Shown in pieces: positions 10,284-48,801 of a DNA stretch of 64,000 bases. The notes beneath the pieces are model-generated. The model had not been told where the DNA came from. It worked only from the letters and a program-made list of their open reading frames with translations, and made no database searches. The position numbers and the translations under genes are program-made. The stretch is from Couchioplanes caeruleus (lineage in GTDB: Bacteria; Actinomycetota; Actinomycetes; Mycobacteriales; Micromonosporaceae), in NCBI RefSeq assembly GCF_003751945.1, contig NZ_RJKL01000001.1, forward strand, positions 434,001-498,000, read 5' to 3'. The stretch's first letter is position 1. Each line of letters begins with the position of its first letter.

Positions 10284-11891
10284 ATGCACGCGATTACCGA
10301 CCGGCTGCGGCACGTCACCAAGCCGGGCGTCACCGCACGGCTCGCGACGCTGACGATGATCGCCGCGATCAGCGTCGTCGTCATGCTGGCCGCGTCGATG
10401 ATCACGACCCGGGAGAATCTGTACGCCGAGCGCGAGCGCCAGACCCAGCAGTTGGTCGAGACGGCCATCGGCGTGGTGGACGGCTACATCGCGCGGGAGG
10501 CGACGGGCGAGCTGACTCGTGAGCAGGCGCAGAAGCAGGCCGCGGCCGCGCTGAAGGTGCTGCGCTACGACTCCGACAACTACTTCTGGGTCAACGACAT
10601 GGCCCCGAAGATGGTCATGCACCCCGTCAAGCCCGAGCTCGACGGCACCGACCTGACGGACGACGCGGACCCGAACGGCAAGCATCTCTTCGTCGAGATG
10701 GTGAACGTCGTGAAGAGCCAGCGGGCCGGCTTCGTCGAGTACGAGTGGGCCAAGCCGGGCAGCGACAGCCCGCAGCCGAAGATCGCCTACGTCCAGGGCG
10801 TGCCCCACTGGGGCTGGGTGGTCGGGTCGGGCCTCTGGGTCGACGACATCGACAGCGCGGCATGGGTGGCGGCGCGCGGACAGGCCCTGGCGGGCGGCAT
10901 CGGCCTGGTGCTGCTGATGCTCGTGGCGTGGCGCAGCGTGCGGCGGATCGGCACCGCGCTCGGCGCCGTGCGGCGCACCCTGGAGCGGGTCGCCGCCGGC
11001 GACCTGACCGCCCGCGTGCAACTGGCCGGCAACGACGACCTGGCCCGCATGGCGCGGGCCGTGGACACGGCCGTCGCCAACAACCGTGAGGTCATCCAGC
11101 AGCTTCACGCCGCCGCGGAGACGTTGTCCGCGAACAGCACCCAGCTCGAGGCCGCCAGCGCCGAGATCACCGAGGTCACCGCCGGCACCGCCGGCCAGGC
11201 GCAGTCGATGAACGCGGCCGCCGACGCGATGACCCACCAGGTCACCACCATGGCGAGCGGCGCGGAGCAGATGCACGCCTCGATCGCCGAGATCGCGCGC
11301 AACGCCGCGGACGCGGCGGTCATCGCCAACGAGGCCGTGGCCGTCGCCACCGACGCCACCCACAGCATCAGCCGTCTCGGCACCTCCAGCGCCGAGATCG
11401 GCAACGTCATCGCCCTCATCGACTCCATCGCCAAGCAGACCAACCTGCTGGCGCTCAACGCCACGATCGAGGCCGCCCGCGCCGGCGAGCAGGGCAAGGG
11501 ATTCGCCGTGGTCGCCACCGAGGTCAAGGACCTGGCCAACGAGACCGCGAAGGCCACCGCGCAGGTGGTCGACCGGATCACCGCGATCCAGGACGACACC
11601 GGCGCGGCCGTCCAGGCCATCGAGCGCATCACCGGCGTGATCGAGCAGATCAACGACTACCAGACCACCATCGCCGCCGCGGTCGAGCAGCAGGCCGCCA
11701 CGACCACCCTGCTCTCCGACAGCGCCGTGACCACCACCAGCCAGGTCAGCACGATGAACGAGGCCATCAGGACCGTCTCCTCGGGTGCCACCGGCGCGGC
11801 GACCAACGCTCAGCAGGTCAACGCTTCGGCGACCAACCTCGGCGACCTGGCCGCCTCCATCCGCGGCCTGACCGAGACGTTCACCGTCTGA
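10284..11891 (+). CDS. methyl-accepting chemotaxis protein with Cache sensor
   Basis: A 535-residue chemoreceptor starting at ATG 10284 behind an AAGGAG ribosome site. Order: membrane helix 1 (about 20-40), extracytoplasmic single-Cache domain (about 42-200, with DNYFWVND and [16 protein letters not shown]), membrane helix 2 (about 205-222), HAMP (about 223-275) and a long signalling coiled coil. The highly conserved hairpin tip is intact ([20 protein letters not shown], then [14 protein letters not shown]), so it can couple to CheA/CheW. No che or flagellar genes are in the window. A chemoreceptor in a high-GC actinomycete fits lineages with motile spores. A hairpin terminator follows. Confidence 0.95.
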
Positions 11892-11910
11892 CCGAAGAGG
11901 TCCCACGGCG

Positions 11911-11952
11911 GGCCGTGGGGTGTGCGGCCGCCACCGCGCACCCCACGGCCCT
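11911..11952. terminator. hairpin terminator between convergent genes
   Basis: A long GC-rich inverted repeat (GGGCCGTGGGGTG paired with CACCCCACGGCCC, with a few extra pairs near the loop) separates the chemoreceptor stop from the stop of the convergent M36 protease. It should serve both. Confidence 0.75.
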
Positions 11953-11958
11953 TACCTG

Positions 11959-14832
11959 TCAGCTGCTGAAGACCTGGAACTCCGCGGCGACCGCGGTGCC
12001 GGCGGCCGGGGACACCGAGGCGCAGTCGGTGGCGGAGCGGGGGTCGTTCTCCTGCTCGCCCGCGTACAGGGGGTTGGCCGTGCACTGGTTACCGAGGATG
12101 CGGAGCTTGACGTGCGTGGCCGGGGTGGGGCGCACCGGGAAGGACTTCAGCACCAGGTTCGGCACCTTGGGCCGGTACGAACCGGTGTCGAACGCGTTCG
12201 CCGGGCTGGTGTAGGCCACCTTGTAGCCGGCGTCGCTCGCGCAGTCCGCGCCCGCCGCCGCGTTGCAGGTGAGGATCTCGAACTGGCGAACCGTGCTGTA
12301 CATCGTGGAGGTCGGGGCGCCCGCGCCCGGGAAGGCGCTGAGCTGGACGCGGGAGACCAGTCTGGGGGCGTCCGCGGGCAGGTCGACGGTGACCTGGCGG
12401 CCGGCGGCGCCGCCGGTGGCCGTCCAGGCCGTGCCCTCGGCGTCGTCGGTGAGCCGGGCGGGGGCGGCACCGTCGCCGGTGATGGTGGCGCCGGATGCCG
12501 CCGAGGCGAGGTTGGTCGGCATGACCACGCCGATGTCGGCGGTGACTCCGGGGTAGACGGTCTGGGTGAAGCGCTTGTGGCCGAAGCCCGCGCCGATCGC
12601 CAGGAAGCGGTACGTGCCCGGGGCCAGCGTGAGCGTGGCCGGCAGCGCGGTGGCCGGGTCGGTGTCGGCGACCGGCACCGAGCCGAAGTCGTAGTCACCG
12701 ACGTAGAGGCGGACCGGCTTGCCGGCGGCCTCGCCGAGCGCCTTGAACGTCACCTCGGAGTTCTCCACGTACGGCGAGGCGAAGCTGGGCACCGGGTCGC
12801 CGTCCGACGGGCCGCTGGCGGCGCCGGCGCCCATGCCGCGGGTGGCGAACGTGTTCCACAGCAGGTCGGCGTTCGCCCCGCCGAAGCGCAGCGCGTCGGC
12901 GGTGATCATGTTGTCGCGCATGTCGAGCATGCTGATCGTGCCGGTCGCGGCCAGCAGGAACGAGTCGAAGACGAGCTGCACCCAGCGCCGGTTGCCCGGG
13001 CATTCGGTCACCGGGGTGGTGCCCGCCGCGCAGCTCTCCTGCTGGGCACGGGTGCCCGCGCCGTAGCGGGCGATGAAGGCGCGGCGGACGTCGAAGTTCG
13101 TCGCGCTCCAGATCTCGCCGTCGGAGTGGACGGCCGCGCCACGGTCGTACCCGTAGTTGGAGTAGTTGAGGGTGCTGTTGCTCATGTCGTAGTTGCGGAT
13201 GCCGGCGACGACGTCGCCGGTCACGTAGCCGCCGGTGATGTACGGCGTGTTGCCCCGCGGGGTGTAGCCGCTCTCGAACAGGTACTCCATCGCCAGGAGG
13301 TCGGACCAGCTCTCCCCCATCGCCCCGCCCTGCGAGGAGCTGATGCCGCTGTCCGGGCCGGCGATCATGCGGTTGCTGATGGCGTGGGTGTACTCGTGGC
13401 CGATGACCGTCATGTCGAAGTCACCGTCGACGCACGGCGGGTACACGGCCCCGGCGAACGGCTGCCACATGTACATGTTGGTGGTCGGCTGCATGCCGTC
13501 CGGCGGGGTCGCCTGGTTGGCGTTGTTGCGGGTGGTCGCGGTGGCCGCGCCCTGCTGGGCGTTGCCGCGCTCGGGGTCGCCGGCCTTGCCGTACGGGCCG
13601 GTGTTGACCTTCTGCAGGTTCCAGGTCGCCTCGGTGAAGCCGAGCCGGTACGACCAGTCGTGCATCCGGTTGTGCATGGCGAACAGGTTGGCGGTGGCCG
13701 CGTCGCCGTCGGCCTGCTCGGGGGAGGCCAGCGAGTTCGGGTCGCACTTGCTGGTGTTCCACTGGTTGGTGAACGGGTAGAGGTACTCGCGGTCGGGCCG
13801 CGCGGCGGCGGGCACCGCCGGGTTGCCGTTGCCCCACAGCCGCACCGTGTCGGCCGAGTTGCCGCTGGTGGTGAAGCTCGGCGTGCCGGTGGTGGCGTCG
13901 ACGTCCCAGGGCTTGCCGGTGGCCGGGTCGAGCACCTGCCGGCTGCAGCCGGTGGCGGTGGCGACGCACCAGATCTGCCGGGCGTCCGCGCCGTTGGCGG
14001 GCGGGGTGGCCGGGAAGACCTTCCAGTGCGGGTCGTCCTCGGCGAAGTTCACGAGGTTCTCCCGCACCAGGATGCGGCCGTCGATCGCGTCCACATAGGT
14101 GGTGTACCCCAGCGGATGGTCGGCGTCGTTGGACATGACGACCACCTCGTACGCGGCGCGCGGATCGGCGCCGGGCATCGGCACGGCGACCAGCCGCACC
14201 CGCGAGTCGGCGAGCTTCTCCCGCTCGATCCTGGCGTCGGTGAGGGCGGCGGCGAGGGCGTCCGCGGGCTGCAGCCGGGCGGCGGCGGGCTCGGCCGTGC
14301 GCGGGCTCAGCGACGAGGTGACCCGCAGGACGTCGCCGCCCTTGACCGCGACGGCGACCAGGCCGTCGTGGGCGGCGGGCAGGTCGCCGTACCGCTGGCG
14401 CAGGAGCACGACGGTGCCGGCGCCGACCTTCGTGGTCGCGATGGTCTCGAGGTCGTCGACCGCCGCCTGGCGCAGCGCGAAGAGGCCGCGGCTGTTCTTG
14501 AGGTAGCGCCGGGCGACGGTGTCGGCGGCGCCCGCCGGCCCGGTGGCGAGCCGGCCCTTGACCGGGGTGACCGAGGCGGGCGTGCCGAGCCTGTTCCAGC
14601 GGGTGACGACGTTGTCAGCGCGGATCTGGGCGCGCTGGGCCGAGGTGGGCGCGGCGGTGCCGCCGCGGTTGTCGACGAAGGCGTACGCCTCGTCGAGGTG
14701 GTCGCCGGTCAGCGGCGTGGCCATGGCGGGCATCGGGTGGGAGGGCGCCGCGCTCGCGCCGAGGGGCGCGGACGCGAGGATCGTGGTAGCGGCGAGGATT
14801 CCGGCGACGGCGGACCGTCTGCGTATGCGCAC
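11959..14832 (-). CDS. secreted M36 (fungalysin-type) metallopeptidase
   Basis: A 957-residue secreted protease. The GTG at 14832 is chosen because AGGAGG lies 5 bases upstream and a signal peptide follows (VRIRRRS, hydrophobic core, cut near ASA-APS). An FTP-type propeptide covers about 40-300. The M36 catalytic domain has HEYTH at 479-483 and the third zinc ligand Glu507 in GGAMGESWSD. A large C-terminal region (about 650-957) looks like one or more beta-sandwich domains, probably adhesion or substrate binding. Family enzymes digest extracellular proteins after propeptide removal. Convergent with the chemoreceptor gene and divergent from glcD. Confidence 0.92.
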   Translation of the reverse strand: MRIRRRSAVAGILAATTILASAPLGASAAPSHPMPAMATPLTGDHLDEAYAFVDNRGGTAAPTSAQRAQIRADNVVTRWNRLGTPASVTPVKGRLATGPAGAADTVARRYLKNSRGLFALRQAAVDDLETIATTKVGAGTVVLLRQRYGDLPAAHDGLVAVAVKGGDVLRVTSSLSPRTAEPAAARLQPADALAAALTDARIEREKLADSRVRLVAVPMPGADPRAAYEVVVMSNDADHPLGYTTYVDAIDGRILVRENLVNFAEDDPHWKVFPATPPANGADARQIWCVATATGCSRQVLDPATGKPWDVDATTGTPSFTTSGNSADTVRLWGNGNPAVPAAARPDREYLYPFTNQWNTSKCDPNSLASPEQADGDAATANLFAMHNRMHDWSYRLGFTEATWNLQKVNTGPYGKAGDPERGNAQQGAATATTRNNANQATPPDGMQPTTNMYMWQPFAGAVYPPCVDGDFDMTVIGHEYTHAISNRMIAGPDSGISSSQGGAMGESWSDLLAMEYLFESGYTPRGNTPYITGGYVTGDVVAGIRNYDMSNSTLNYSNYGYDRGAAVHSDGEIWSATNFDVRRAFIARYGAGTRAQQESCAAGTTPVTECPGNRRWVQLVFDSFLLAATGTISMLDMRDNMITADALRFGGANADLLWNTFATRGMGAGAASGPSDGDPVPSFASPYVENSEVTFKALGEAAGKPVRLYVGDYDFGSVPVADTDPATALPATLTLAPGTYRFLAIGAGFGHKRFTQTVYPGVTADIGVVMPTNLASAASGATITGDGAAPARLTDDAEGTAWTATGGAAGRQVTVDLPADAPRLVSRVQLSAFPGAGAPTSTMYSTVRQFEILTCNAAAGADCASDAGYKVAYTSPANAFDTGSYRPKVPNLVLKSFPVRPTPATHVKLRILGNQCTANPLYAGEQENDPRSATDCASVSPAAGTAVAAEFQVFSS

Positions 14833-41844: not shown

Positions 41845-43545
41845 TTACCGCGTGACGGACGCGTACGCGTCGACGATGCCGTAGCCGTAGAAGCCGTTGA
41901 AGCTCGAGTCGCCGGAGCAGTAGGCGTTGTACTCGGCCGACCGGCCTTCCCGCGTGTACGTGCGCAGCCGCGGGCTGGGGCAGGAGCGCTTGGTGGCGGT
42001 CTCGTACAGGCGCCGCTCGAGGGCGGCCGGGTCCATGCTCATCCCGCCGCGGGTCGCGTCCCGCGTGCCGTACCTGCTGGCGATCAGCGCCGCGACGCCA
42101 CTGGCGTGCGGTGCGGCCATCGAGGTGCCCTGCAGGTAGGTGTAGTAGCCGCAGGCGCCGCCGGTGGTGCATCGCTTGAAGACCGAGCTCGCGTACGAGG
42201 AGCGCACGTTACCGGCGGAGTCCACCTTGTTCTCCTCGCGGAGGACCTTCAGCGGGTAGGTGGAGAGGATCTGGTTGGACACCGAGTTGAACGAGCTGGT
42301 GCCGTAGCCGTCGCCGCGGAAGCCGCCGGGGGCGGCCACGGAGATCTGCTCCACGCCGTAGTTCGAGTAGTCCGCCTTCGAGGTGGACGGGCCGACCGAC
42401 GAGACGCCGATGACGTGCGGGCCCTCGACGGGCAGGTCCCAGCAGGTGGCGTTGTCGATACGGCGCGGGCGCGGGGTGCCCCCGAAGTTGGGGCTCGACG
42501 TGTCGGTACGCGGGCTGCCCAGGTCCTCGTGGTTGTTGCCGAGCGCTCCCACCAGCGTGACGCCCTTGCTGTGCGCGTACTCCAGCGCGCGCCGCATGCC
42601 GGCGATGATCGCCTGCTGCCCGGCCTGCTCCGCGGGGCTGTCCGCCGCGTTGGCGGTGCAGTTGTAGAGCCACGGGTCGACGTAGAACGACATGTTGACC
42701 ACGTCGAGGCCGGCGTCGCCCGCGTAGGTGAGCGCGTTGACGATCGGCTCCAGGAAGAAGGAACCGGAGTCCTGGCCGCCCTTGAGCTCGACGAGGGTCA
42801 CGCCGGGCGCGACGCCCGAGATGCCGAAACCGTCGGCGGCGGCGGCGATGGTGCCCGCGACGTGCGTGCCGTGGCCGCCGTCGTCGGTGCCGACCGGGTC
42901 GAGGCAGCTCGCCACCTCACACGGGCCGTCCTCGGGGATGTCCGGTGCGAAGTTACGCGACAGGCTCGCGCTGAAGTTGGCCGCGAGGTCCGGGTTGCTG
43001 GCGTCCAGGCCGGTGTCGAGCATGCCGACGGTGATGCCCCGCTCGCCGGCCTCCACGCTCCGCGCCCGGTCCGCCTTGATCATTTTGAGGCCCCAGAGCC
43101 GGGTGTCGAGCGGGTCGAGGCCCGCCGTGCTGCCGGCCCGGGCGGGGAGCGCGGCGGCCGCGGGGGACATCGCGGCGGAGGCGGTGAAGCCGGACCCGGC
43201 GGTCACCGACTGCACGCCGGCCTCCTGCCGGGGAGCACGAGGGCTGCGGCCGATGGGCGCGCGCAGGTTCGCGCCGATCAGGGTGCCGCTGCCGGCGACC
43301 TTCGCGGGGAAGTCCGCGCGATGCGACGTCACCCGGAACAGGCCGATCGCGTCGTTGCGGGCGACGACGGTGCCGCCGGCCGCGGTGATGGCCGCGGTCG
43401 CCGCGGAGACCGGCACTCCCTCCTCGGCGACGACGGTGTACTCGGTGGGAGCGGTCGGCGCGGCCTGGGCCGAGCCCGACACAGTGGTGCTCAGCAGAGT
43501 CAGCGCCGCCAGGGCGGACGCGCCGACGATGCGTCGTTTCGTCAT
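41845..43545 (-). CDS. secreted subtilisin-like serine protease (S8)
   Basis: A 566-residue preproenzyme. A signal peptide (KRRIVGASALAALTLLSTTVSGSAQAA) and an I9-like propeptide (about 35-100) precede the S8 domain with Asp177 (GMLDTGLD), His225 (GGHGTHVAG) and Ser475 (GTSMAAPHASG). An asparagine in LGNNHED takes the oxyanion place. Several cysteines suggest disulfides. It should digest protein outside the cell. GAGGGAAG is the ribosome site. The upstream region is strikingly AT-rich and contains AGAT/ATCT arms that may bind a regulator. The neighbouring CHAT gene lies just upstream on the same strand, but this protein is exported, so a common role is not assumed. Confidence 0.92.
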   Translation of the reverse strand: MTKRRIVGASALAALTLLSTTVSGSAQAAPTAPTEYTVVAEEGVPVSAATAAITAAGGTVVARNDAIGLFRVTSHRADFPAKVAGSGTLIGANLRAPIGRSPRAPRQEAGVQSVTAGSGFTASAAMSPAAAALPARAGSTAGLDPLDTRLWGLKMIKADRARSVEAGERGITVGMLDTGLDASNPDLAANFSASLSRNFAPDIPEDGPCEVASCLDPVGTDDGGHGTHVAGTIAAAADGFGISGVAPGVTLVELKGGQDSGSFFLEPIVNALTYAGDAGLDVVNMSFYVDPWLYNCTANAADSPAEQAGQQAIIAGMRRALEYAHSKGVTLVGALGNNHEDLGSPRTDTSSPNFGGTPRPRRIDNATCWDLPVEGPHVIGVSSVGPSTSKADYSNYGVEQISVAAPGGFRGDGYGTSSFNSVSNQILSTYPLKVLREENKVDSAGNVRSSYASSVFKRCTTGGACGYYTYLQGTSMAAPHASGVAALIASRYGTRDATRGGMSMDPAALERRLYETATKRSCPSPRLRTYTREGRSAEYNAYCSGDSSFNGFYGYGIVDAYASVTR

Positions 43546-43620: not shown

Positions 43621-46239
43621 TTAACCCGGGCCGAAGGCGGTCAGGCCGCACCACGCGACGTACTCCTCCGGGCCGCCCCCGGACAGGGCCTGCCGGGCGT
43701 GCCATACCGCCGTGGCCAGCGAGTCTCCCCGGGCGATCCGCTCGTGCAGCACCGCCATGCACGCCGCGCTGGCCCCGTCCGGGATCGGCAGGTCGGTGGC
43801 CGCGATTCCCGCGCTGCCCTGCGCCATCATGGCGCCGACGAGGCCGACGACCTCGTCGCCGCCGTACGCCCGCTGGGCGCCCGAGTCGCAGGAGGCCAGC
43901 ACGACGCGGTGCGGTGCGACCCCGCGGGCGAGCATCTCGTAGAGGGTGAGCCGGCCGTCGCTGAGCTCGAGCGCGGAGAAGAGCGGGCTGTCCGACCGGA
44001 ACAGTCCGTGGCACGCGAGGTGCGCCAGGTCGGCGTCCCTGATCAGCTCGACGGTCGCGTCCACCGTGCTCTCCGGCGGCAACAGCGTGCGCGCCTCCGG
44101 GTGTACCGCGGCGACCGCCTGCGCCTCGTCGAGGGCGCACGGCAGATCCGGGCCCGCGACGACGGCGACCCGGGCGCGGCCGTCGGCGTCCGGCGGCCCC
44201 TTCGGGGGGGTACGCCGGGCCCGGGCCCACAGCGCCGCGGACGGCGTCACGGTCACCGGCGCCGGGTGCAGGGCCGACCACGGTACGCCGGGGATGCGGG
44301 CCGACGGCACCACGACCAGGGGCACGTCCGCGGGCACGCCCACCGGCGCGACCAGCAACCCGGCCAGCGCGTCGACGGCCTCGGTCGCCGCACCGAGGGC
44401 GAGGGCGGCGAACCGGGTGCCGTGCAGCAGCCTGCGCAGGCCGAACATCAGCGCCGCGGCCTCCTGCCGGATCGGTTCGGCGGCGCCGAGCTCGACGAGG
44501 CGCAGCCGGCGCGGCTCCACCACGACGGCCAGCAGGCGATCGCCGGTCACGGCGTACTCCACAAGCCATTCGCCGTCGAGGGCGCGGCGCAGCTCCGCGC
44601 CCCGGGCCGGGTTCGCCGCCACGGTGCCGGTCTCCTCCCGGGTCCAGGACCGGCGCCGGATCCGGGCTTCGAGCGCGCTCTGCCGGGCCAGCAGCGCCGC
44701 CGGCTCCTCGCCGCGCTCCAGCCGGGCGACGCGGAGCTCCTGGGCGATGCCGCGCAGGGCGATGACGTCGGAGTCCACCCCGGTGGCCGGTGGGTGCACG
44801 CGCAGCAGGGCCGCGGCCCGGGTGCGTTCCAGCCATTCGAGGATGCGCGACGGGGAGCCGGCCGGGAGAAGATGGCGCAGGCCGGCCTCGCCGAGCTCGG
44901 TGCCGTGGCCGGAGGCGAGCACCCGCAGTTCGAGCGAGGGCAGGGCGGCCCGGTGCCGGGCCAGGTCGCGCAGGCCGCGGGCGCATTCGCGCAGGACGTC
45001 GCCGGAGCCCTCGGCCTCGGCCAGCAGGACCCGGGCGACCCGGCCGCGCAGGCGCACGAGCAGCGACTGTCCCTCGGCGATCTCGCTCACCGCGGTCAGC
45101 TCGGCCCGGGCCGGCGCGAGCCTGCCGAGCGCCAGGGCGGCCCTTCCGGCCGCGAGGTGCCCGTACGCCGCCTCGGCGCGCAGCCCCTGATCGCGCAGGG
45201 TGGCAGCCGCCGTGCACAACCGGCGCAGCACCTCGCTCGTGTAGCCGTCGCGGGCCGCCAGGGCCTCCGCCTCGGTGACCGTCGCACGGGCCGTCCACGC
45301 CGGACGGCGCTGGCGGCGGAAGTCCCGTCCGGCGGCCTGGGCCTCGGCCAGCGCCGTCGCCGGGTCGCCGAGCTCGAGGGCGAGGCCGGCCACGCGCAGC
45401 CGGGCCTCGGCCGCCATGAGCCGGGCGCCGTGGCGGTCGAAGTCGGCCGCCGCCGAACGGGCCGCCGCCATGGCCTCGTCGAGCAGCCGCAGGTCGCGCA
45501 GGACGTCGGCGTACTCGAGCCGGTGCTCGCCGAGCGGCAGCCCGGCGGCGGCGTGCAGCCGGCCGGCCTCCTCGAAGTGGCGCACGCTCTCGGCCAGCCG
45601 TCCGGCGTGGAACGTGGCCCAGGCCCGGCTGTCGGCGATCACGGCGGGCAACTGGGGGCCCAGGTCGCGAGCGAGGACCGCGGCCCGGTCGAGGTGTTCG
45701 AGCGCCTCCTGCGGGCACCCGAGCAGGGTCTGCGCGTTGGCGAGGTTGTTGGCGGCCTTGACCAGGACGATCGGCGGGCACTCCGGATCGGCGAGCAGCT
45801 CCCGGTACGCCTGTGCGGCGGCGACGACGCGGCCGCGGTTGTGGTCGAGGACCGCGAGCTGCAGCCGCAGGTCGGGCCGGTCGGCGGGCTCGATCAAGGG
45901 CTCGGCGCGACGCAGATCCCGGGCCGCGGCGTCGTGGCGGCCCAGCTCGTGCAGGGCGACGGCGCGGGTGACGAGCAGCTCGCCGAGGCGGCGGGCCAGG
46001 CCGTGCCGCCGGGCCGTACGGACGCCGCCGTCCAGCAGCTCGCGGGCGCCCTCGTTGTCGAGCCTGGCATGCCGCGCCCAGGCCACGGCCCGCAACGCGA
46101 CGAGATGCGCATCGACGTTCGTACCGGTCCGGGTCCGCCGGAGGGTCACTTCTGCCGCGTGCGCGTATCTGGCCGGATCGCGCAGAACTCTCCGGTAAGC
46201 GGCGTCGGCCTCCGCCCGTAGGCTCACCTCTGTGTCCAC
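43621..46239 (-). CDS. TPR-CHAT protein (caspase-like protease)
   Basis: An 872-residue cytosolic protein. About 500 residues of helical TPR-like repeats (ELGRHDAAARDLRRAEPL, ANNLANAQTLLGCPQEALEHLDRAA and similar) precede a spacer and the C-terminal CHAT domain (about 620-870). The caspase-type dyad is intact: His744 in LAHLACHGLF and Cys784 in VVLASCDSGAQ. The final SLATAVWHARQALSGGGPEEYVAWCGLTAFG is the usual CHAT ending. Known bacterial CHAT proteins are specific proteases that are switched on by a partner. It is divergent from a subtilisin gene without signal peptide (67-bp gap) and close to an ECF sigma factor. Start GTG 46239; V5 is an alternative. Confidence 0.9.
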   Translation of the reverse strand: MDTEVSLRAEADAAYRRVLRDPARYAHAAEVTLRRTRTGTNVDAHLVALRAVAWARHARLDNEGARELLDGGVRTARRHGLARRLGELLVTRAVALHELGRHDAAARDLRRAEPLIEPADRPDLRLQLAVLDHNRGRVVAAAQAYRELLADPECPPIVLVKAANNLANAQTLLGCPQEALEHLDRAAVLARDLGPQLPAVIADSRAWATFHAGRLAESVRHFEEAGRLHAAAGLPLGEHRLEYADVLRDLRLLDEAMAAARSAAADFDRHGARLMAAEARLRVAGLALELGDPATALAEAQAAGRDFRRQRRPAWTARATVTEAEALAARDGYTSEVLRRLCTAAATLRDQGLRAEAAYGHLAAGRAALALGRLAPARAELTAVSEIAEGQSLLVRLRGRVARVLLAEAEGSGDVLRECARGLRDLARHRAALPSLELRVLASGHGTELGEAGLRHLLPAGSPSRILEWLERTRAAALLRVHPPATGVDSDVIALRGIAQELRVARLERGEEPAALLARQSALEARIRRRSWTREETGTVAANPARGAELRRALDGEWLVEYAVTGDRLLAVVVEPRRLRLVELGAAEPIRQEAAALMFGLRRLLHGTRFAALALGAATEAVDALAGLLVAPVGVPADVPLVVVPSARIPGVPWSALHPAPVTVTPSAALWARARRTPPKGPPDADGRARVAVVAGPDLPCALDEAQAVAAVHPEARTLLPPESTVDATVELIRDADLAHLACHGLFRSDSPLFSALELSDGRLTLYEMLARGVAPHRVVLASCDSGAQRAYGGDEVVGLVGAMMAQGSAGIAATDLPIPDGASAACMAVLHERIARGDSLATAVWHARQALSGGGPEEYVAWCGLTAFGPG

Positions 46240-46306
46240 CTGGCACCGCCCGAGGGTGAGGCGTGGAAGTCGACGTCAGCGTACCGACGGACAGAGGGAG
46301 AAATCC

Positions 46307-47620
46307 ATGACCATCGACGCGCGTTGGCCGGTATCGGACACTCGTACGGCCGAACAGCTCGCGCACGACCGGGAGGACGTCGGCCGCCAGGTCGCCGTCC
46401 TCGCGAGCGCGCAACAGGACATCGTGGAGCGGATCCGGGTGCGCCGGCGCTCGTCGGGCGACCCGTTCGTGGTCGTGACCACCGACGACCACCGCACGGC
46501 GCTCACCGCCGAGAACCAGTTGGTGGTGGAGGCGGACGCGGAGCAGCAGGGACGGCTGGGCACGCTGTTGCCCAACTGGGACCCGGACGACCGCCCGGGC
46601 CGCAGCGACCGGCGGCGGACCCGGGTGTTGCGCTGCCGGACCAACCGCACGGCGCGGGAACTGCGCGCCGACGCCGAGCGGCTGCGCGGGCACGGCATCA
46701 CGGCCGCCGTGAACCTGCTCGTCCCGCTCGGCTACGTGATCAAGGGCAAGTCGTATCCGGGCGTCACCGTCGCTCCCGGCCCGTACTCGCCGAACGGTGC
46801 CCACGCGCCGGTGCGGGTGGCCGTCGTCGACACCGGGCTGACCGACCAGGGCCGCTCCGACGCCTGGGACACGGGCCTGGTCCGCAACGGCACCGACGAG
46901 CTGGACGTGGTGGCGCCCAAGGACCGCATCGACTGGTTCGCCGGGCACGGCACCTTCGCGGCGGGGATCGTCCGGCAGATCGCGCCGGACTGCGAGGTGG
47001 TCGTCTACCGCTTCACCGGCCCGGACGGTCTCGGTAGCGACGAGGCCGCGGCCGACATGCTCATCCAGGCCGCCGACGACGCCGCGGGCCAGCGGCTGGT
47101 CATCAACGCCTCGTTCGGCGCGCCCGCCGTGGACGGGGTCCCGCCGCTGGCGATGCGGGAGGCGGTGGAGTACATCCACGCCACGTACCCGAAGGTGCTG
47201 ATCGTCGCCAGCGCCGGCAACGACGGCGCGGACCTGCCGCTGTATCCGGCGGCGTACCCCGGCGTGAAGGCGGTGGGCGCGCTGAACGCCGACCTGTCCC
47301 CGGCGGTCTTCTCGAACCGGGGTTCCTGGGTGCACTGCTCGACGGTGGGCGTGGGCGTCGTCTCCACGTTCGTCCAGGGCCTGCTGCCGCCCGAGGAGGG
47401 CGTCGGCGCCGACATCCCGTTCGGCAGCGACTCCTGGGCGACCTGGAGCGGCACGTCGTTCAGCGCACCGCAGATCAGTGGGGCCGTCGCCGCGTTGTGC
47501 GGGGAGGACGCGGCGCTGACCCCGCGGACGGCGTTCGAGCAGTTGATCGGGCCGCGTCCGGCGCTGGCCGGCTTGGGCAAGGTCGTCCACCTGCTGCCGG
47601 GCACCCCGATCTCCTGCTGA
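46307..47620 (+). CDS. intracellular subtilisin-like protease (S8)
   Basis: A 437-residue S8 protease without a signal peptide. The catalytic Asp175 (VAVVDTGL), His214 (FAGHGTFAAG), Asn305 (SAGNDG) and Ser384 (SGTSFSAPQISG) are all present. The N-terminal 165 residues are a separate domain with a coiled helical start (EQLAHDREDVGRQVAVLASAQQDIVERIRVRRRS) and a Glu/Gln-rich middle, unlike the I9 propeptide of secreted subtilisins. ATG 46307 follows GAGGGAG. It is divergent from the CHAT gene and convergent with the gene of the small helical/beta protein, 16 bp apart. It probably works inside the cell, in contrast to the subtilisin at 41845-43545. Confidence 0.88.
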   Translation: MTIDARWPVSDTRTAEQLAHDREDVGRQVAVLASAQQDIVERIRVRRRSSGDPFVVVTTDDHRTALTAENQLVVEADAEQQGRLGTLLPNWDPDDRPGRSDRRRTRVLRCRTNRTARELRADAERLRGHGITAAVNLLVPLGYVIKGKSYPGVTVAPGPYSPNGAHAPVRVAVVDTGLTDQGRSDAWDTGLVRNGTDELDVVAPKDRIDWFAGHGTFAAGIVRQIAPDCEVVVYRFTGPDGLGSDEAAADMLIQAADDAAGQRLVINASFGAPAVDGVPPLAMREAVEYIHATYPKVLIVASAGNDGADLPLYPAAYPGVKAVGALNADLSPAVFSNRGSWVHCSTVGVGVVSTFVQGLLPPEEGVGADIPFGSDSWATWSGTSFSAPQISGAVAALCGEDAALTPRTAFEQLIGPRPALAGLGKVVHLLPGTPISC

Positions 47621-47636
47621 GGTCACCCGCCGTGCG

Positions 47637-48155
47637 TCACACGAGGGTCCACTCGGTGGTCACGGCGGGCGCCCCGGATCGGCGGCAGGTCAGGCTCAGC
47701 GGCCCCGGAAGCACGTCCTCGACGACGAACAGCCCTCGCCGGTCGGCGTCGACCTGGCGGGCTTGCGGTGCCGCGGGCTGGCGTACCTCGATGCGGGCCG
47801 GCCCCTGGGGGGCGAGGTGGCCGGTCAGTCGGCGGCGCGGGCCGAGGAACTCCACCTGCACCGCGATGACCACCTCGTCGCGGCCGTGCGGGCCGACGAC
47901 CTGGAAGGTGAGCTGGCGCGGCTGCGGCGCGGTGCCCGGATCGCGGACGGCGACCGCGCGCCGGTGCACCGCGCCGTCGCCGGCGGCCTCGGAGTCCTCG
48001 ACCAGGGCGGCCAGCTCGGCGTCGAGGGCACGCAGCCCGAAGCTCTGCCGGGCCAGCTCCCTCAGGAGCTCCGGCGGCGGGTCGGCCTGGGCGAACAGGT
48101 CGCCGAGCCGGGTGAGGAGGCGCTCGTCGTCCACGGGTTCGTACGCGTCGTGCAC
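47637..48155 (-). CDS. small helical/beta protein between sigma factor and protease
   Basis: A 172-residue soluble protein with an N-terminal helical half (DDERLLTRLGDLFAQADPPPELLRELARQSFGLRALDAELAALVEDS) and a C-terminal beta half (LTFQVVGPHGRDEVVIAVQVEF, LTGHLAPQGPARIEV, LFVVEDVLPGPLSLTCRR) that resembles an Ig- or transthyretin-like fold. GTG 48155 follows GAGGAG. It lies 52 bp downstream of the ECF sigma gene on the same strand, where anti-sigma factors often are, but the zinc anti-sigma HxxxCxxC motif is absent. It may bind the sigma factor or one of the proteases; this is inferred from position only. Confidence 0.6.
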   Translation of the reverse strand: MHDAYEPVDDERLLTRLGDLFAQADPPPELLRELARQSFGLRALDAELAALVEDSEAAGDGAVHRRAVAVRDPGTAPQPRQLTFQVVGPHGRDEVVIAVQVEFLGPRRRLTGHLAPQGPARIEVRQPAAPQARQVDADRRGLFVVEDVLPGPLSLTCRRSGAPAVTTEWTLV

Positions 48156-48207
48156 GGTGACTCCTCGGGCCGGTGGGAAAACGGGTTGCGTGGCGAAGCC
48201 ATCACTG

Positions 48208-48801
48208 TCAGGAGTCGTCGCCGGTCTCCCGGATACCTTCTGTCAGGAATCGGCGCAGTTGGGCCAGGCACCGTCCGCGGGTGGGGCCGAGGCTGCCGAT
48301 CGGCATGCCCAGCGCGGCGGCGGCCAGCTCGTACGAGGGCCGCCCGCCGTCGGCCTCGACCACCAGCACCCGCAGCACGTCGCGGCACCGGCGGCTCAGC
48401 CGCCGGAAGGCCTGCCACAGCTCGGCGTCGCGATCGGCGGCCAGGAACGACGACACCGGGTCGTCGGCGGCGTCGCCGGGCCGGTCGTCCAGCCAGGAGT
48501 CGTCGACCGGCTGCGCGCGACGGGCCCGGCGGAGCACCGCCAGCGACTCGTTGCGGCAGGTCGTGCCGATCCAGGCGCCGAACTTCGCCGGATCGCGCAG
48601 GGAGTCGAGGTTCTCGAGCGCCCGCAGCCAGGTCTGCTGGAAGACGTCGGCCGCGTCGGCGGGGCCGAGCCGGTGCACCCGGCACACCGCCCAGACCCGG
48701 CCGCTGTAGCGCCGGACGATCTCGTTCCACGCCTCGGGATCGCCGGCCGCCGCCCGGCCCACCACCAGCGTCATGTCCTCGAGCGGCCCACCGTCGTTCA
48801 T
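48208..48801 (-). CDS. ECF-type RNA polymerase sigma factor
   Basis: A 197-residue sigma-70 family protein with region 2 (EIVRRYSGRVWAVCRVHRLGPADAADVFQQTWLRALENLDSLRDPAKFGAWIGTTCRNESL) and region 4 (FRRLSRRCRDVLRVLVVEADGGRPSYELAAAALGMPIGSLGPTRGRCLAQLRRFL). ATG 48801 is chosen because GGAGGCGAGG lies just upstream and the ECF fold begins soon after. It is followed by the small helical/beta gene and shares the neighbourhood with the CHAT and subtilisin genes, which it could control. Confidence 0.9.
   Translation of the reverse strand: MNDGGPLEDMTLVVGRAAAGDPEAWNEIVRRYSGRVWAVCRVHRLGPADAADVFQQTWLRALENLDSLRDPAKFGAWIGTTCRNESLAVLRRARRAQPVDDSWLDDRPGDAADDPVSSFLAADRDAELWQAFRRLSRRCRDVLRVLVVEADGGRPSYELAAAALGMPIGSLGPTRGRCLAQLRRFLTEGIRETGDDS

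Follow-up and report, generated by a model that had tools for sequence, protein, structure and literature searches.

Four neighboring genes in a 64,000-nucleotide stretch of Couchioplanes caeruleus DNA (contig NZ_RJKL01000001.1, positions 434,001 to 498,000; this whole stretch is called the window below) encode a CHAT protease with tetratricopeptide repeats (TPRs), a subtilase of family S8, a small two-part protein referred to here as SMALL, and an extracytoplasmic function (ECF) sigma factor, SIG (Table 1). The four genes constitute a real conserved module, for the parts of which a new, testable reading is offered. An earlier note on this DNA had placed the genes at these positions, with catalytic residues in both proteases, a 67-bp divergent gap between them and no signal peptide on the S8 enzyme. 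Pfam and TIGR02937 matches and alignments agreed on genes and residues, the gap was confirmed, and the S8 protein was not among the S8 proteins whose N-terminus was marked as hydrophobic or twin-arginine, leaving no evident export signal. At a Pfam E-value of 0.1, the window CHAT matched TPRs, CHAT and, in a single weak match, DUF3856. Its dyad was kept in 35 of 36 aligned CHAT proteins, the exception (L050) being cut by a contig end, and the S8 triad was kept in 31 of 31 sequences, comprising 30 module S8 proteins and the secreted S8 of the window. SMALL converges with S8 across a gap of 16 nt, and 52 nt separate the SIG stop from the SMALL start. In the S8/CHAT gap, a TAnnnT-like element facing CHAT was read by eye in the window and in seven of ten relatives printed. 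SMALL matched once in the genome of origin (8.43 Mb, two contigs); its nearest named relative in a protein search was from Actinoplanes (90% identity), and the nearest named CHAT locus was from Couchioplanes (94%).

Table 1. Features of the protease–sigma factor locus, in window coordinates
Feature	Coordinates	Strand	Evidence
TPR-CHAT protease, 872 residues, GTG start	43621..46239	-	His744/Cys784; Pfam CHAT E 2.8e-26 and TPRs
S8/CHAT divergent intergenic region, 67 bp	46240..46306	.	
S8 subtilase, 437 residues, predicted zymogen	46307..47620	+	Pfam S8 E 3e-21; Asp175/His214/Ser384, Asn305
Helical hairpin of S8, residues 15-50, ahead of prodomain-like region			AlphaFold2 model
Prodomain-like region of S8, about residues 56-140	46472..46726	+	AlphaFold2 model; match to unprocessed pro-subtilisin
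SMALL, 172 residues, candidate anti-sigma partner	47637..48155	-	Weak CarboxypepD_reg; fold taken from a fused homolog's model
ECF sigma factor (SIG), 197 residues, ECF54-like	48208..48801	-	TIGR02937 65.5 bits, cut-off 42.9
Second S8 subtilase, 566 residues, signal-peptide-like start	41845..43545	-	75 bp downstream of CHAT, same strand

Conservation of the four-gene module

The earlier note had let the module depend on whether homologs of the four genes stay together in other genomes, and this was examined in both directions, starting from CHAT and from SMALL; they do stay together. On the CHAT side, named genomes gave 374 related loci, of which the best 80 were taken, a choice by which close relatives are favored; all six frames of these loci were scanned with a profile for each of the four families. 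Partners were counted within 6 kb, and the 68 loci flanked on each side by more than 3.5 kb were considered testable. SIG, SMALL and S8 were all found beside CHAT in 66 of these 68 loci, while the two exceptions (L132 and L137) showed only S8 and no SIG-SMALL. Among the 12 loci with short flanks, seven held all three partners, L121, which lies 610 nt from a contig end, lacked S8 only, and the remaining four, likewise at contig ends, held none. The genera represented include Actinoplanes, Micromonospora, Geodermatophilus, Cellulomonas, Kribbella, Saccharothrix, Pseudonocardia, Nonomuraea and Streptomyces, and near-duplicates (L076/L109, L116/L117 and L047/L095, the last two on contigs of equal length, 717,567) were retained in the counts.

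On the SMALL side, matches were obtained in 43 of 121 genomes of the window's order (47 matches, including the window's own). Of the 46 outside the window, 40 loci with wide flanks were analyzed and six were left out; SIG was present in 37 (one fused), CHAT in 32 and S8 in 26, and three of the eight loci without CHAT (L042, L049 and L054) lie close to contig ends. A phylum-wide draw gave SMALL in 28 of 246 genomes (33 matches), from which 20 loci (21 matches) were analyzed, two matches being already in the set and ten weaker ones left out. SIG was present in 17 of these loci, CHAT in 13 and S8 in 12. S8 without CHAT was not observed in either SMALL-anchored set, and CHAT without S8 occurred six times in the order-wide and once in the phylum-wide set. 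Occurrence is nested: SIG with SMALL, then CHAT, then S8. Simple neighborhood inertia is unlikely because gene order and strand vary widely, with 26 different strings among the CHAT loci (split hits or contig ends account for a few of these). The four-gene grouping lies far beyond chance, and the note's proposal of a module is borne out.

This association is already in print as the context of the sigma factor group ECF54, for which a 2022 review describes a conserved carboxypeptidase, a subtilase and a CHAT protein and relates a proposal of proteolytic control without an anti-sigma factor (PMC8999054). Genes of the carboxypeptidase type, subtilase and CHAT occur together in the window and in the same 66 of 68 loci.

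Several loci differ in gene content. Around a single SIG-SMALL pair, L040, L062 and L063 carry two S8 and two CHAT genes with intact catalytic residues, which looks like a joint duplication of the protease pair. In a Cellulomonas metagenome-assembled genome, a second partial module with SIG, SMALL and CHAT and no S8 (L105:11425-15161) adjoins the first, both lying between rplA and rplJ. L076 and L109 occupy mirror positions on one contig (NZ_LOJP01000014.1) and their gene lists are identical, a pattern suggestive of a large inverted repeat or a palindromic artefact of assembly. Long "CHAT" genes of 1,200-1,450 residues without S8, seen at several loci, were discounted, as the frame runs antisense through S8 and the six-frame search recovers the S8 gene. 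The second, secreted-type S8 of the window, unmentioned in the earlier note, probably lies outside the core module; Couchioplanes locus L073 has an 87% identical gene of 571 residues after CHAT, at 11713-13428.

SMALL as a sigma factor partner and S8 as a predicted zymogen

SIG stood beside SMALL in 126 pairs, of which 119 were co-oriented and measured, with frequent overlap (start choice favors small gaps). Additionally, a protein search with the L039 sequence, itself a SIG-SMALL fusion, as query identified at least ten database proteins fused in the same way, with 93-100% of the query covered; the search scored the 7,997 candidates that had most words in common with it. A further apparent fusion in Pseudonocardia CNS-139 (L151) was kept out of the count, its sigma region-4 lying in another frame. 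The earlier suggestion that the sigma factor and the small protein form a pair is upheld by these adjacent or overlapping genes and natural fusions. Ten loci, six of them well flanked, carry SIG-SMALL without CHAT or S8 and share no other neighbors. S8 and CHAT are likewise mostly adjacent, usually divergently. Agreement of pairwise distances over 83 loci was highest for S8-CHAT (0.93) and SIG-SMALL (0.84), with 0.71-0.80 for the other pairs and permutation maxima of 0.07-0.11, the shorter proteins being noisier. No common promoter element for the sigma, S8 and CHAT genes was found in a crude count of the four top dyads per gene in eight clades. In one genus, L034 and L036 have a SMALL homolog without a sigma gene, in a shared gene run including leucyl-tRNA synthetase.

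SMALL begins with helices, where many members show an LDAELAxL-like core plus a DS motif; a non-conserved linker follows, and the C-terminal beta-sandwich part carries DxxGxF and a late threonine. The sole recurrent Pfam signal was CarboxypepD_reg, which 21 of 32 members matched at E 0.1 or better, the strongest at 8.6e-06 and the window protein at 0.0033, below the family cut-off. None of the 32 members matched a peptidase family, and none matched an anti-sigma family at E 0.1. Some homologs are labelled "Carboxypeptidase ..." in source records (P0025 and P0043), and the "carboxypeptidase" of the ECF54 context is taken to be the SMALL family. Judging from its domain matches, SMALL is probably not a carboxypeptidase, CarboxypepD_reg being a regulatory-domain family. 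Because SMALL shows no enzyme domain, is paired with SIG, sometimes without nearby proteases, and is fused to it in nature, it is the leading candidate for the anti-sigma partner missing from ECF54.

A model of fusion P0006, built from an alignment of 10 fusions and 39 SMALL rows, reached a predicted local distance difference test score (pLDDT) of 89 and a predicted template modeling score (pTM) of 0.65, and showed a flexible linker and then the beta-sandwich. In view of this pTM, about 200 of the 307 residues may move as one body made of the sigma factor and the SMALL helices, with the beta-domain loose. SMALL helices were involved in 22 of the top 40 covarying pairs, compared to 14.9 +/- 3.0 in shuffles, phylogeny being left uncorrected.

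The S8 model (54 rows) gave a pLDDT of 90.9 and a pTM of 0.94, and its best whole-chain matches were unprocessed pro-subtilisins and PCSK9 entries, from model residues 56-71 to 429-430. The N-terminal domain had no Pfam match across 54 members. The earlier note had called this 165-residue domain unusual, a description that does not hold, as the model reads as a divergent subtilisin prodomain behind a helical hairpin rather than a new domain. With such a prodomain fold ahead of the S8 domain, the enzyme is likely a zymogen. The linker after the prodomain varies in length, and no conserved cut site was seen in it. The note had further suggested that one protease activates the other, for example by cutting this domain; the prodomain fold makes S8 a plausible substrate, but subtilisins normally process themselves. 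A Tat-like (twin-arginine) start was present on five of the 99 listed S8 proteins, a number that includes the window's second S8, namely those of L045, L057 and L070 from the window's family and of L142 and L143 from Micromonospora, and these five are probably exported. For CHAT, no match at E 1 was found between the CHAT region and the sequences of solved structures, and another search matched the CHAT chain of PDB 8ROT/8RW5, for which the literature searched gave no paper.

A candidate protease-to-transcription switch and its alternatives

On the basis of the observed conserved module, the SIG-SMALL pairing and fusions, nested occurrence, catalytic residues and predicted prodomain fold, we tentatively favor an ECF54-type, CRISPR-free switch from protease to transcription, in which the inhibitor SMALL is cut to free the sigma factor; this is a serious possibility, somewhat short of probable. 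At rest, the N-terminal helices of SMALL would hold the sigma factor. The TPR part of CHAT would sense a cytosolic partner or signal, and active CHAT would then cut SMALL, perhaps within the unstructured linker, so that the freed sigma factor could switch on its regulon. S8 would be held inactive by its own prodomain and serve as a second, optional protease linked to CHAT, which would either activate it to complete the removal of SMALL or have it working alongside. The binding and inhibition, the choice of which enzyme cuts what, the signal and the regulon are what we infer here. The earlier note had cast the proteases as effectors and the sigma factor as regulator; the roles are more likely reversed, with the proteases as trigger and the sigma factor as output. 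No conserved cut site was seen in the SMALL linker, which says nothing against cleavage because Craspase cuts non-conserved sites (PMC11106740).

Inhibition by SMALL has to be weighed against the unlikely alternative that SMALL is a positive partner, that is, a chaperone, co-activator or adaptor delivering the sigma factor to either polymerase or the proteases. Fusion and pairing indicate a partnership and not its sign, SMALL has no Pfam anti-sigma domain, and a permanently fused inhibitor would require proteolysis at every activation. However, the sigma part of the fusion model fits some inhibitor-bound arrangements best: the two sigma regions of P0006 jointly fit RpoE/NepR, SigW/RsiW and CnrH/CnrY far better than they fit sigma factors bound to polymerase. 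The rows of this structure match mostly leave the SMALL helices uncovered, and the match concerns the sigma part. Two observations speak against taking this match as a sign of inhibition, in that SigG1, listed without a partner, is likewise compact and other inhibitor-bound sigma factors match P0006 over region 2 only. In general, a co-operonic gene downstream of an ECF sigma factor gene most often encodes its anti-sigma factor, which again counts against a positive partner.

The proposal in print for ECF54, under which the proteases degrade the sigma factor itself, no anti-sigma factor exists and SMALL is accessory, appears quite unlikely for the window's module, as it leaves the SIG-SMALL fusions, the protease-free SIG-SMALL pairs and the strong pairing unexplained.

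A conflict or cell-death module, as the earlier note had suggested, would have an invader signal activate CHAT and S8, host proteins destroyed and the sigma factor only tuning expression. CHAT and subtilase proteins are known in conflict systems, the module itself scored "subtilase" at 4e-17 and a weak BovA in PADLOC, and caspase systems with ECF sigma factor genes have been described (PMC8195603). We took these PADLOC hits as general protease matches, and the eight window neighbors scanned gave only general ATPase and subtilase matches. The module lies inside the secE-nusG-rplK-rplA/rplJ-rplL-rpoB cluster in 21 of 140 loci, gene names having been checked with Pfam in L108 and carried to other loci by tblastn. 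Both rplA and rplJ were visible in 17 of these, 10 from Cellulomonas and seven from one family (f2) of the window's order, and the internal gene order of the module differs between the two lineages. These 17 loci are listed in two groups (L043, L046, L051, L052, L060, L065 and L071; L093, L097, L100, L102, L104-L108 and L135). This place and the distance agreement suggest that the module has long been inherited vertically and is not a mobile defense island, and with the scanned window neighbors ordinary and a core chromosomal place in two lineages the conflict setting is not sustained and seems very unlikely. The site may simply tolerate insertions, since Mycobacterium presumably holds other genes at the rplA-rplJ gap.

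Finally, it is improbable that two separate units merely lie nearby, SIG-SMALL with its own regulon and S8-CHAT with its own targets, outside the membrane in some Micromonosporaceae: SIG-SMALL does occur without near proteases and S8-CHAT without SIG-SMALL (L132 and L137), distance agreement peaks inside each pair and five S8 proteins have Tat-like signals, but both pairs lie within 6 kb in 66 of 68 loci despite varied order and strand, which an ordinary neighborhood does not explain.

Comparison with known systems

The SAVED-CHAT cascade of type III CRISPR is said to include a downstream caspase-like protease and sigma parts. It resembles the window's module in having a CHAT protease that acts through a proteolysis cascade (PMC11229360), but it carries a SAVED sensor where the window CHAT has TPRs, and the second protease in the window module is a subtilase. 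No SAVED match was found in the genome of origin, though control genomes gave none either. The CalpL-CalpT-CalpS system (type III CRISPR, SAVED-Lon), in which cleavage of an anti-sigma factor by a protease frees an ECF sigma factor (PMC11417357), is similar in logic only, as the protease belongs to another class and the window CHAT shows TPRs by Pfam and no cyclic-oligoadenylate sensor. EACC2 caspase systems also place a caspase-type peptidase near ECF sigma factor and TPR genes; however, they are marked by conserved EACC2 and DUF1822, and neither a subtilase nor SMALL is mentioned in that part of the source (PMC8195603).

Craspase (type III-E CRISPR: Cas7-11, Csx29, Csx30 and CASP-sigma) also has a TPR-CHAT protease and an ECF sigma factor encoded together, along with an inhibitor that binds the sigma factor and is cut at a non-conserved site (PMC10028731 and PMC11106740), to which SMALL is a candidate counterpart. 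A TPR-CHAT protein with the His/Cys dyad is likewise present here, by Pfam matches and the alignment of 36 CHAT proteins. In contrast, the N-terminal part of Csx30 alone has 428 residues (PMC10028731), compared to 172 for the whole of SMALL, S8 is an additional protease in the window module, and no RAMP (PF03787) match indicative of gRAMP/Cas7-11 was found in the genome of origin, the control having matched in 4 of 14 genomes.

ECF54, a group which the review traces to Huang 2015 and Casas-Pastor 2021 and models on SFT86700.1 from Geodermatophilus amargosae (PMC8999054), shares the sigma factor, "carboxypeptidase", subtilase and CHAT genes with the window. The sigma gene at the G. amargosae CHAT locus (L089) is 40% identical to that of the window, which is in turn the best match to it in its own genome (101 bits, compared to 37.7 for the next); the L089 sigma factor is linked to SFT86700.1 by species only. 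Where the printed account has a proposal of proteolysis with no anti-sigma factor involved, the present reading would make the "carboxypeptidase" a non-enzymatic sigma partner and S8 a zymogen and optional. As far as the literature searched shows, new elements are the reading of SMALL as a non-enzymatic candidate anti-sigma factor and of S8 as a zymogen, the nested occurrence and the rplA-rplJ place; no experiment on ECF54 and no paper on this gene combination with a SMALL-type protein as sigma partner were found there. If SMALL is the inhibitor, this would bear on how ECF54, for which proteolytic control without an anti-sigma factor has been proposed, works. The switch would then be a CRISPR-free example of CHAT protease-to-sigma signaling, tractable in innocuous soil genera such as Actinoplanes and Cellulomonas, with a cytosolic caspase-like protease possibly tied to a subtilisin zymogen. 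It is conceivable, if on balance rather unlikely, that ECF54 is a CRISPR-free relative in logic, perhaps ancestral, of the CHAT/anti-sigma/sigma outputs of type III CRISPR, in which CHAT, on sensing a cytosolic signal, activates the subtilisin zymogen and both remove a small soluble anti-sigma factor, hitherto unrecognized, so that an ECF sigma factor is released in a vertically inherited stress pathway of Actinomycetota.

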